The translations under genes and the position numbers were made by a program. Below are positions 2,855 to 8,043 of a stretch of 10,768 nt of DNA, in pieces; positions within the stretch are counted from its first letter, which is position 1; the number at the start of each line of letters is the position of its first letter. The notes beneath the pieces are model-generated. The model was not told the origin of the DNA. It did no database searches and worked only from the letters and a program-made list of their open reading frames with translations. The stretch is from Candidatus Brocadiaceae bacterium (GTDB lineage Bacteria; Planctomycetota; MHYJ01; JACQXL01; CAKKQI01), in contig CAKKQI010000056.1 of assembly GCA_919901895.1 (NCBI GenBank), forward strand, positions 1-10,768, given 5' to 3'.

Positions 2855-4720
2855 GTGCTATCCGAAAAAATCTTACGGAAACTTATCCCCTACCGCATCG
2901 GCCATCAGGTCGGCCTGGTTTTTGGGCTCCTGCTAACCGGGGCGCTTGGTTTCCTGGGATTTTCGTTAATTAACACCAGCCGGCAAGCGGTGATTGATTC
3001 GGTCCTGCGCGATTACGACACGATCGTCAAAGGCGCCTCGCGGGAGTTAGCCACCCACGTTACCCAGCCGCAAGAATTACTCGTGAATACCGCCGCGCTG
3101 CTGGCCAATCTCCCCCAGCATAAACCGGAAACGTTCAAGGCCGTTATCTACCAAACACTCATTAACCAAGCAAACCGGTTTGAACGCATCACCCTGATTA
3201 ATGCGGCCGGCCAGGAAATAATCGCTTCCGACTGGCAAAACCCGCTTAAAGACCGTTCGGTTGAAATAATTTTTCAACAGGTTAAAACAAATCCACAACC
3301 CACCATTTCCCGGGTTTATTTTTCGCCGGAACATTTTCCTTTTATCAGTATTGCGGTCCCGGTCCGCCGGCTGAATGAAGTAACCGGATTCCTGCTCGCC
3401 GAGGTAAAATTGTCCGGACTCTGGGACGTAGTTAACCGGATTAAATTACCGGACGGCGAATCATTCTTAGTAGATGAGGAAGGTTATATGCTGGTGCATA
3501 ATGAAGAGCGCCGGGTATATCGGGCGGAAGATTTGAGCGGCCTGGCCGTGGTGCAGGCGGCCTTGCAGGGACAGAGCGGCAGTAAGGAACAAACGGCCGG
3601 CTCGGAAAATGAGTCAACGAATTCAGCCGGCCCAAAAACCGATTGGCTTTACGCCTATGCACCGGTGCAGCCGTTCGGCTGGGGATTAATCATCCGCCAG
3701 CCGGCCCGGGCCGCCTATGCTTTTTCGGACCGGATGCAGAAGACGGCCTTGATTACGATCGCCCTGGCGATTTTATCCGCCGGCGGGTTGAGCTGGCTCC
3801 TCGCCCGCCGGATTGTTAAACCCATTAATAAAATCGTGACCGCCTCAGAACAGGTGGCCCTCGGTAATCTGGAACAGGAAATAACCTCAAAACGTCAGGA
3901 CGAAATGGGCGGTCTTTTGAGTTCATTTAATGAAATGATTAAAAAGTTACGCCAGGTCCGGCGGCTGGAAAAACTTTCAACCATCGGACTGGCCACTTCT
4001 AAAATAGGACATGAAATCAGAAACCCGCTGGTCGCAATGAAAACCTTTATCCAATTGCTCGGACGGAAACATGAGGACAAAGAATTTATTCATAATTTTA
4101 ATAACATCGTCCCGTCTGAAATGGCCCGGTTGGAAAAGATGGTCAATGAATTAACGGAATTCTCCAAGGCGCCGCAACTGCGCCTGGCCGACTGCGAACC
4201 GGACCGGATTATCCGGAACTCCCTTGATTTATTCCGGGAAGAATTCCAGGAAAAGAAAATTACGGTTTTAACCAATCTGGAAACAAACCACCGTTGCCCC
4301 GATATGCATCGGGACTTCACTTCGTTACGCCTGCGGGCGGATAACGACCGCTTAAAGCAGGTATTGATTAATCTGATTCGCAACGCGCTGGAAGCGATGC
4401 CGGAAGGCGGCCAACTGGAAGTTAATGCCCAGATGAGTAACGGCCGGACCAGTCTTAGTCCGGCTGATTCAAGCCGTAACGACTCCTGCCCCGATATCAT
4501 CGGGACCTGCGTGATTGAAATCAAAGACACCGGCTGCGGGATACCGTCTGAAGCCCAGACGAACCTTTTTGAACCGTTCCAGACTTTCAATAAAAAAGGC
4601 GGACTCGGACTGGGGCTGACCATCTGCAAGGAAATTATCACCCAGCACCGGGGAACGATTGAGGTAGACAGCCGCTTAAACCAAGGCACGACTTTTAAAA
4701 TTACGTTACCGATTGAGTAA
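2855..4720 (+). CDS. Membrane sensor histidine kinase (Cache-HAMP-HisKA-HATPase)
   Basis: A 621-residue kinase starting at GTG, seven bases after AGAGAGG. A transmembrane helix at about 17-39 precedes an extracytoplasmic region (40-295) with the pattern of a double-Cache sensor (Y154-F-S, 'F-L-V-D-E-E-G-Y-M-L-V-H', 'Y-A-P-V...G-W-G-L-I-I-R-Q-P'). A second helix follows at about 297-316, then HAMP (317-370). The H-box is GHEIRNPL with His386 as phospho-acceptor; the N-box is around Asn506/Asn510; G1 is DTGCGIP (558-564); G2 is GGLGLGLTI (582-590). The H-box type is that of NtrB/AtoS/ZraS-like kinases that pair with sigma54 activators, and exactly such a gene follows 20 bases later. Two extra segments in the ATPase domain (about 479-491 and 531-550) coincide with palindromic DNA repeats; all catalytic boxes are intact, so the kinase is probably functional. 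The ligand is unknown. Confidence 0.92.
   Translation: MLSEKILRKLIPYRIGHQVGLVFGLLLTGALGFLGFSLINTSRQAVIDSVLRDYDTIVKGASRELATHVTQPQELLVNTAALLANLPQHKPETFKAVIYQTLINQANRFERITLINAAGQEIIASDWQNPLKDRSVEIIFQQVKTNPQPTISRVYFSPEHFPFISIAVPVRRLNEVTGFLLAEVKLSGLWDVVNRIKLPDGESFLVDEEGYMLVHNEERRVYRAEDLSGLAVVQAALQGQSGSKEQTAGSENESTNSAGPKTDWLYAYAPVQPFGWGLIIRQPARAAYAFSDRMQKTALITIALAILSAGGLSWLLARRIVKPINKIVTASEQVALGNLEQEITSKRQDEMGGLLSSFNEMIKKLRQVRRLEKLSTIGLATSKIGHEIRNPLVAMKTFIQLLGRKHEDKEFIHNFNNIVPSEMARLEKMVNELTEFSKAPQLRLADCEPDRIIRNSLDLFREEFQEKKITVLTNLETNHRCPDMHRDFTSLRLRADNDRLKQVLINLIRNALEAMPEGGQLEVNAQMSNGRTSLSPADSSRNDSCPDIIGTCVIEIKDTGCGIPSEAQTNLFEPFQTFNKKGGLGLGLTICKEIITQHRGTIEVDSRLNQGTTFKITLPIE
4289..4329 (+). repeat. 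In-gene palindromic element A (kinase ATPase domain)
   Basis: The palindrome CCCGAT-ATGC-ATCGGG (4298-4313) lies within about 39 bases coding for residues 479-491, which are extra between 'V-L-T-N-L-E-T-N' and 'L-R-A-D-N-D-R-L-K-Q-V-L'. Eight bases after the palindrome comes TCGTTACG (4322-4329), whose reverse complement lies beside element B. Confidence 0.65.
4443..4504 (-). repeat. In-gene palindromic element B (kinase ATPase domain)
   Basis: A 60-base in-frame segment (4445-4504) codes for residues 531-550, between 'L-E-V-N-A-Q-M-S-N-G' and 'T-C-V-I-E-I-K-D-T-G'. Removing it restores the normal HATPase spacing before the G1 box. It contains two hairpins, GCCGGAC-N8-GTCCGGC (4443-4464) and CCCGAT-ATC-ATCGGG (4490-4504), and CGTAACGA at 4475-4482. 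The last is the reverse complement of TCGTTACG next to element A, at nearly the same distance from the palindrome (7 versus 8 bases). The two elements thus look like copies of one repeat in opposite orientation. Confidence 0.7.
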
Positions 4721-6969: not shown

Positions 6970-7025
6970 GGCCAAGATTTATCCCGATTAGCATCTGGAA
7001 ATGCCGGTGATCTGGTGGGCTTTTT
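6970..7025 (+). terminator. Terminator-like hairpin in the HD-GYP leader
   Basis: An imperfect hairpin pairs CC-A-AGAT (6972-6978) with ATCTGG (7010-7015), CCG (6984-6986) with CGG (7005-7007), and GCAT (6991-6994) with ATGC (7001-7004). TGGGC and a T-run (7021-7025) follow directly. It sits 30 bases before the HD-GYP start codon, inside the predicted leader. A terminator there suggests either attenuation control or simple insulation from upstream reading; the stem is interrupted, so the call is tentative. Confidence 0.4.
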
Positions 7026-7056
7026 ATTTACACTCCCGATGTGTCTCGGAACAAGT

Positions 7057-8043
7057 ATGAACCATAAAATTTTAATCGTTGATGACGAACCAGCGGTCAG
7101 GGAAATGATGGTAACCTTCCTGACAAAATCAGGTTACGAAACTTTTGTCGCCGAATCAGGCACCGAGGCAATCCGGCAAATAAAAAATAAAGTTTTTTCG
7201 CTGGTACTCTGTGATGTGGTGATGCCGGCCTCCCCGATTGATATCGGGGGACCGGCGATGGATGGTTTGCAGGTCCTGGCTGAAATCAAACGAATTAATC
7301 CGGCCCTGCCGGTTTTGATGATGAGCGGGGTCACCACTCACGACCTGGTGATTAAGTCGCTGGAAAAAGGTGCGGTTGATTTTATTGCCAAACCAATCAG
7401 CCTGGTTCAGGTCAACAAGATTATCAAGAAAGTCCTCAATCCCGATTTGAGAATCCCGCTGGAATATCCCTCGCCGGTGGCCCGGCTGATGCGCGAGGGA
7501 TATTTCGGAATATTAAAAACGACCAACCAGATGCTTGAAATGAAAAATCCTTATCTCAAAGGTCATTCCCAGCGGGTGGCGGATGCTGCGGTAAAAATTG
7601 CCCGCGGGTTAAAACTGCCGGATAATACGATTGAAGTAATTAACTATGCCGCTCTTTTGCATGACATCGGAAAGGTCGGAATCAGCGATGTCATCCTTTT
7701 TAAACCGGACAAATTAACCGCGCAGGAATGGGCGGATATTAAGACGCATCCGATTCTCAGCCGGATGATGGTGGAACAGTTACGGCTCTTCAGGGCTGAA
7801 GAACCGATTATTGAATATCACCACGAATGGTACGACGGTTCCGGTTACCCGAAAGGATTAAGCCATGAAGAAATCCCGCTGGGCGCCCGGGTTATCAGTA
7901 TCGCCGATGCCTATGACGCGATGACTTCAGACCGGCCTTACCGGGTTTCCCTGGATAAAATTAATGCGGAAAAAGTTCTCCGGAAATACAGCGGCACACA
8001 GTTTGACCCGAAAATGGTGGAAGTGTTTTTGGAAGTTATCTGA
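7057..8043 (+). CDS. Receiver-HD-GYP response regulator (probable c-di-GMP phosphodiesterase)
   Basis: The best start is ATG at 7057 (MNHKILIVDDEPAV, 328 residues). A GTG 14 codons upstream lies inside the leader hairpin and would add a peptide foreign to receiver domains; the SD before 7057 is weak (CGGA, 7047-7050). The receiver (1-125) has Asp9/Asp10, phospho-acceptor Asp53, Ser90 and Lys112. It carries about nine extra residues at 58-67, between 'D-V-V-M-P' and 'M-D-G', encoded by a palindromic repeat. The HD-GYP domain (about 145-328) shows GHSQRVAD (His170), LHDIGKVGI (His202-Asp203), His231, His255-His256, the GYP motif in DGSGYPKGL (261-269) and IADAYDAMTSDRPYR. All expected metal ligands appear present, so hydrolysis of cyclic di-GMP in the cytoplasm is likely. 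It lies 3 bases before a PAS histidine kinase gene, which is a likely phospho-donor, and behind a sigma54 promoter. Confidence 0.93.
   Translation: MNHKILIVDDEPAVREMMVTFLTKSGYETFVAESGTEAIRQIKNKVFSLVLCDVVMPASPIDIGGPAMDGLQVLAEIKRINPALPVLMMSGVTTHDLVIKSLEKGAVDFIAKPISLVQVNKIIKKVLNPDLRIPLEYPSPVARLMREGYFGILKTTNQMLEMKNPYLKGHSQRVADAAVKIARGLKLPDNTIEVINYAALLHDIGKVGISDVILFKPDKLTAQEWADIKTHPILSRMMVEQLRLFRAEEPIIEYHHEWYDGSGYPKGLSHEEIPLGARVISIADAYDAMTSDRPYRVSLDKINAEKVLRKYSGTQFDPKMVEVFLEVI
7228..7257 (+). repeat. In-gene palindromic element C (receiver loop of HD-GYP gene)
   Basis: CCCCGAT-TGAT-ATCGGGG (7232-7249) is embedded in frame after the phospho-acceptor Asp53, where receivers normally read 'D-x-x-M-P-G-M-D-G'. 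The stem core CCCCGAT/ATCGGG is that of elements A and B, but it is read in another codon phase. Confidence 0.65.

Follow-up and report, generated by a model that had tools for sequence, protein, structure and literature searches.

The question raised by this locus is how a short palindrome came to lie, in frame, within a kinase gene of an uncultured planctomycete. The gene encodes a sensor histidine kinase (2855..4720, + strand; dCache-HAMP-HisKA-HATPase_c, 621 aa) and belongs to the window, by which we mean the whole stretch of 10,768 nucleotides that was analysed; the one named genome in which an orthologue was found is the Planctomycetota MAG CSMAG_1870 (58%, best segment). An earlier note on this DNA had proposed a mobile double-hairpin unit of 60 bp. 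The feature is probably a single insertion of a palindromic element that is very short and non-autonomous, a 15-bp hairpin placed at a duplicated 6-bp target, and we infer that this CCCGAT hairpin is mobile.

Anatomy of the insert in the kinase gene

The kinase copy begins with a left target copy, TCCTGC (4484..4489), followed by the 15-bp hairpin core CCCGATATCATCGGG (4490..4504; CCCGAT-ATC-ATCGGG, codons PDIIG) and by a right target copy, ACCTGC (4505..4510), which matches the left one at 5 of 6 bases. Every part is in codon phase, and the core plus one target copy amounts to 21 bp, or 7 codons. The general unit is CCCGAT-NNN-ATCGGG, 15 bp with a potential 6-bp stem and a 3-base loop, and the target consensus is RCNNGY.

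The two hairpins described in the earlier note are present and both fold (4435-4515: -28.1 kcal/mol, z -2.09, with 6 of 200 shuffles equally stable), and the 3' hairpin terminates at 4504 as claimed. The upstream hairpin (4443..4465) lies outside the element, as its pattern CCGGACN{3,12}GTCCGG occurs at 5 sites in the genome versus 6 in the reversed control. On these counts the double-hairpin unit was rejected, whereas the proposal of a palindromic element in frame in the kinase holds for a unit of 15 bp plus a 6-bp duplication. A TCGTTACG module adjoining the hairpins was rejected as well, its matches being few and mostly unrelated.

The stretch from GGQL to CGIP comprises 47 residues in the kinase versus 27-41 in 11 aligned homologues, and subtraction of 7 residues gives 40, within the range of the homologues. 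Because loop length is too variable among these 11 proteins, the size of the insert is not measurable by protein alignment, and the figure of 21 bp was judged by anatomy. The same variation undercuts the earlier description of 20 extra residues with exact boundaries at 4445 and 4504. The peptide itself is absent from 11 of 11 aligned homologues, in agreement with the insertion that had been proposed.

A second palindrome in the same gene, CCCGATATGCATCGGG (4298..4313), has a 4-base loop and lies inside an 11-residue insert that is missing from all 11 aligned homologues; no clear direct repeat was found in its flanks. The AlphaFold model of the kinase is of modest confidence (pTM 0.47) and has six low-confidence segments, of which 480-488 and 531-548 coincide with the two inserts, between strands. 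Low model confidence at both inserts fits tolerated loops and is also expected from alignment gaps or a shallow alignment.

Copies and target repeats in the genome

The genome that was searched comprises 2.5 Mb in 509 contigs and is 93% complete. BLAST with 4440-4512 returned the window itself and 21 further matches, 17 of which lie in the 3' hairpin, around CCTGCCCCGATNNNATCGGGGCCTG. The pattern CCCCGATN{0,8}ATCGGGG has 126 sites in this genome (control 0), and CCCGATNNNATCGGG has 96 (reversed control 1). As such, the expectation that further copies would be dispersed inside and outside genes, with coding insertion tolerated, was borne out by about a hundred genome copies.

For the anatomy of these copies, flanks were fetched for the listed sites and 95 distinct 3-base-loop copies were retained. 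In about half of them the core is flanked by direct repeats with the consensus RCNNGY and a period of exactly 21. The free NN positions are equal in both flanks in 43 of the 95 copies, compared with a mean of 7.9 and a maximum of 20 in 2000 shuffles (8.0 and 22 in a re-run with 5000), and after removal of copies sharing outer 6-mers the agreement is 36 of 79 versus 7.1 expected (maximum 16). This agreement peaks only at period 21; periods 17-20 and 22-27 give 1-9 of 95. It is strong in genes (37/77 vs 6.5, maximum 15) and weak outside them (6/18 vs 2.0, maximum 7). Flanks matching at 5-6 of 6 bases were found in 31 of the 95 copies (6.2 in shuffles, maximum 15). A single mechanism may not cover all copies, since the flanks match at fewer than 4 of 6 bases in 46 of the 95, among which 9 carry ACAGGY as a fixed flank instead.

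Perfect 6/6 repeats surround eight copies and are of seven kinds (GCCTGC twice, GCTGGC, GCCAGC, GCGGGC, GCGCGT, GCTTGC, and GCGAGC); therefore, the repeat is not a constant part of the element. Loops differ even among these perfect-repeat copies, which counts against simple copying of a master. When palindromic ends bordered by perfect 6-bp repeats were sought at 37 insert lengths, 8 cases were found at 15 bp and 0-2 at each other length, in a scan biased to 15 bp by the fetching of loci with hairpin patterns, mostly 3-base-loop with perfect arms; fetching of this kind also conceals decayed copies. Seven of the eight 15-bp inserts were RCNNGY with CCCGAT.

The spacing of the arms bears on another origin, in which the 15-bp hairpins would be footprints of near-precise excision of a longer CCCGAT...ATCGGG transposon that duplicates a 6-bp RCNNGY target. 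Such an origin would account for the target duplication, the symmetric ends, and the variable middle bases, and Tn10, whose near-precise excision leaves a palindromic remnant, offers a precedent. The fetched part of the genome contains no evident parent transposon with the same ends; among its 260 distant CCCGAT...ATCGGG pairs (110-2500 bp), 3 have flanks matching at 5 or more of 6 bases. These three lend the excision reading some support, but their number is small and one of them does not conform to RCNNGY. Moreover, the gap between arms with strong flank repeats is 3 in 31 pairs and 4, 6, and 9 in one pair each, a narrower spread than would be expected of excision repair, and two of the three strong-repeat pairs with gaps of 24-60 are tandem pairs. 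We therefore regard excision footprints as unlikely. Two CCCGAT...ATCGGG pairs about 1.4-1.5 kb apart have matching flanks (L008:109-1520, GCCTGT/GCCTGC; L168:531-2040, GTTTGT twice) and represent either chance or the ends of a longer element.

Three tandem pairs lie exactly 21 bp apart in this genome. One (L161) has the three target copies GCGAGC, GCGAGT, and GCGAGC; in another (L157) the outer targets agree (GCGTGC, GCGTGG) and the middle one, GTATAC, differs; in the last (L175) all three differ.

Insertion of a very short element remains the reading that we favor. An enzyme supplied in trans would make cuts staggered by 6 bp in RCNNGY, the hairpin itself or a DNA copy of it would be joined to the staggered target ends, and fill-in would then duplicate the 6-bp target; a duplicated target is the established hallmark of staggered cuts that are filled in. 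More specifically, and only tentatively, the 15-bp hairpin might be the self-contained substrate of an integrase-like enzyme, which would cut RCNNGY with that stagger and leave a fresh 3-base loop at each insertion. Neither an enzyme nor an intermediate was found, nor a near-identical strain in which the site is empty. If the hairpin is indeed such a substrate, few DNA insertion elements described would be as small, its 15 + 6 arithmetic would make it naturally suited to adding 7 residues to proteins, and insertion with target duplication would be achieved by a unit far below the 70-300 bp of the MITEs that we compared. This could open to test how small transposable DNA can be and how often selfish inserts create protein loops.

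Palindromes with the same arms and longer loops do not fit a single family. Copies with 4- or 5-base loops have no common target duplication, and one family for all loop lengths was rejected on this ground; we treat these copies as related but separate classes. Five 4-base-loop loci (L020, L036, L111, L149, and L176) contain a longer repeat near GAGTTCTCCGAAGCCCCGATNNNNATCGGGGTTCGGAGTCCATC, mostly outside called genes, with the same arms and a different family identity. Three others (L027, L096, and L107, with L088, L097, L103, and L106 similar) contain the repeat TGGCGGATATCCCCCGATGTNAYATCGGGGG and its variants, which has a 5-base loop and lies partly in ORFs. Within the window, a palindrome CTCCCCGATTGATATCGGGGGA lies between two CCGGC direct repeats with a period of 27 (7225..7256), in the receiver domain of a response regulator with an HD domain (7015..8043, + strand). 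It adds 9 residues relative to 24 of 26 aligned regulator homologues, the other two exceeding those 24 by 1 and 7 residues. The homologue with seven more residues (P0148) has a similar peptide at this site, and the insert is therefore not private to this genome, which may point to an older insertion or to a hot spot. A further palindrome, CCCGAAAGGTCGGGATTTCG, adjoins tRNA-like 5' ends (CCGTAGCTCAA and variants) at L022:1440-1640 and L025:200-560, near tRNA genes in the latter; tRNA genes may have been invaded here by yet another palindrome.

Copies in genes and their effect on proteins

Gene context was assigned by calling genes from open frames with a basic dicodon model built for this analysis. 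Among the 49 copies with at least 4 of 6 flank matches, 43 lie in genes and 6 outside; of the copies with fewer matches, 34 are genic and 12 are not. Coding sequence makes up a fraction of 0.84 of the fetched loci, which overlap in part, and clear-repeat copies are found in genes about as often as this. All three frames are used by the 43 gene copies (21, 13, and 9), and the encoded peptides include APIxSG, PDxIG, and PRxxRG. Since 15 + 6 = 21, every such insertion is frame-neutral, and many would be tolerated in loops. That genes are not avoided could follow from frame neutrality alone, and under the integrase-substrate reading a frame-neutral length would mean that they need not be. It is most likely that the element serves no function in its host.

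Ten gene copies were compared with homologues; four add exactly 7 residues and six add 6-27. The NDP-sugar epimerase has 29 residues versus 22, a difference of 7 against all 80 aligned homologues. PheT has 7 more than 6 of 6 relatives, including the same-family genome, and the same excess in both printed PDB alignments, as does the FAD oxidase in both of its own. The SdhA-like flavoprotein exceeds 5 of 6 relatives by 7 residues and the sixth by 6. The remaining proteins are Maf (+6), AroDE (+8), MurC (+10 to +14), TatD (+15), TilS (about +27), and transketolase (+14 and +17). In the transketolase (L151:1670-2590), the adjacent inserts QTPIKSEQ and NKPRLHRAK jointly add 14 residues relative to the best PDB match, and the stretch looks like one decayed copy (QTPIKSEQ) followed by an intact one (NKPRLHRAK). 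If these are indeed insertions of the element, short extra peptides such as APIxSG, PDxIG, and PRxxRG in MAG proteins can be DNA elements rather than functional motifs.

These inserts also bear on whether the palindromes might not be mobile at all, being binding or RNA-processing sites that arose or are kept by selection. The arms are nearly always perfect (of 30 strong-repeat copies that have 10/12 arm bases or more, 27 have 12/12) while flanks and loop vary, as selection on a site would predict, and most 4-base-loop copies are extragenic (23 of 34; 6 of 14 for 5-base loops). The perfection of the arms is partly due to how the copies were collected, however, and neither whole 7-residue inserts that homologues lack nor target-copy flanks are expected from point mutation, which makes a selected site very improbable.

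A hairpin sitting between direct repeats inside conserved enzymes could further be taken to suggest that the insert is skipped in translation or removed from the RNA, such that the proteins carry nothing extra; the mitochondrial byp elements are a precedent for translational skipping. Skipping would not require the frame to be kept, but the loop is 3, 6, or 9 bases long, and hence frame-keeping, in 33 of 34 short-gap strong-repeat cases, and we give this reading only the slightest chance. The open frames of the gene copies do not test skipping, as genes were called from open frames.

Known palindromic elements, relatives, and viruses

The small dispersed repeats (SDRs) of Nostoc and its relatives, which were reportedly described by Elhai et al. 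in 2008, are said to be hairpin-forming, dispersed, nested sequences of 21-27 nt. The element that we describe resembles them in size class (net 21 bp vs the 21-27 nt said of SDRs), in forming hairpins, in its dispersal, and in its nesting, as seen in tandem copies 21 bp apart. It differs, by what is said of SDRs, in belonging to another phylum, in duplicating a variable 6-bp target with a net gain of 21 bp, and in having most copies in coding sequence. SDR5 inserts precisely between nucleotides 3 and 4 of HIP1 (PMC4390886), and precise insertion into a short palindromic target is a likeness to SDR5.

Rickettsia palindromic elements (RPEs; Ogata et al. 2000) are likewise palindromic, dispersed, and in frame in conserved genes, with copies inside and outside ORFs. 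Their length is put at 105-146 bp in one review and at about 150 bp in another, and they are given 12-bp terminal repeats, with target duplication marked by a question mark (PMC2229807, PMC10969869). Kinship with RPEs, which the earlier note had cited as a parallel, is not supported, given a unit of 15 bp (period 21) against 105-150 bp for RPEs, and a clear 6-bp duplication here. The element works like RPEs and cyanobacterial SDRs and is not shown to be either, with full membership in none of the compared systems. Bacterial MITEs share terminal inverted repeats and target site duplication with it, but PMC3733652 gives them 70-300 bp with terminal repeats of 15-30 bp, whereas the whole unit here is 15 bp. 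Among the matches listed in a literature search, with subscription papers mostly beyond reach, no title or abstract opening describes such an element.

Single-strand transposition by Y1 enzymes is not known to duplicate the target. This weighs against a REP-type origin of the hairpin, with a REP-associated tyrosine transposase (RAYT) as the agent of its spread, since the element does duplicate its target. Such an origin draws on one Y1_Tnp gene in the genome and on the character of REP/REPIN sequences, which are likewise short high-copy palindromes, some of them in frame in ORFs (PMC3733652, PMC3116915). The element lacks the GTAG or CGTC tag of REPs at the hairpin foot; its flanks are RCNNGY with variable NN. 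Furthermore, no CCCGAT hairpin lies beside the Y1_Tnp gene in its 3.3-kb locus (genome 93% complete), and the palindromes that flank this gene are different ones, GTAG-tagged as judged by eye. A RAYT origin was rejected on the basis of this sole Y1_Tnp found, with its other palindromes and no CCCGAT hairpin nearby, and we hold it to be a very small possibility. The flanking palindromes of the RAYT-like gene (L227:1380-2100), GTAGCTGCGGGGCTTGCCCC and GGCGACCACAAGGGTCGCCGCTAC, apparently form a separate REP system with it.

Across 149 Planctomycetota genomes, CCCCGATN{0,8}ATCGGGG has its 126 sites in the genome studied here; three members of the family or order have 14-28, another three genomes 21-25, and the remainder 0-4 (control 0-1). 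In eight relatives of the same order, CCCGATNNNATCGGG was found at 0-17 sites (control 0). When 30 copies from seven relatives were read, flanks matching at 5-6 of 6 bases were found in only 3, two in a genome of the same family (G001) and one in G006. When 392 Planctomycetota genomes were searched for the strict form RCNNGY-CCCGATNNNATCGGG-RCNNGY, two had it, both of one family: the one studied here (18) and G001 (3). In another relative (G008), 16 of 17 three-base-loop copies share the loop GAA, and the five that were read share parts of their flanks; these copies are a longer conserved repeat rather than a target-duplicating element.

Related viruses or hosts may carry the element. Three IMG/VR contigs match; the flanks are perfect 6-bp direct repeats on L217 and L218 and inverted on the third contig. 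The copy on L217 follows closely after the stop codon that ends a long ORF. A search for relatives of the viral ORF that contains a copy returned the ORF itself alone, and it has no PHROG match. This copy, L218:9865-9891 (IMGVR_UViG_3300025312_001180), has perfect GCTCGC repeats and is in frame in the 192-aa ORF, where it encodes PRLHRG (EPRLHRGE).
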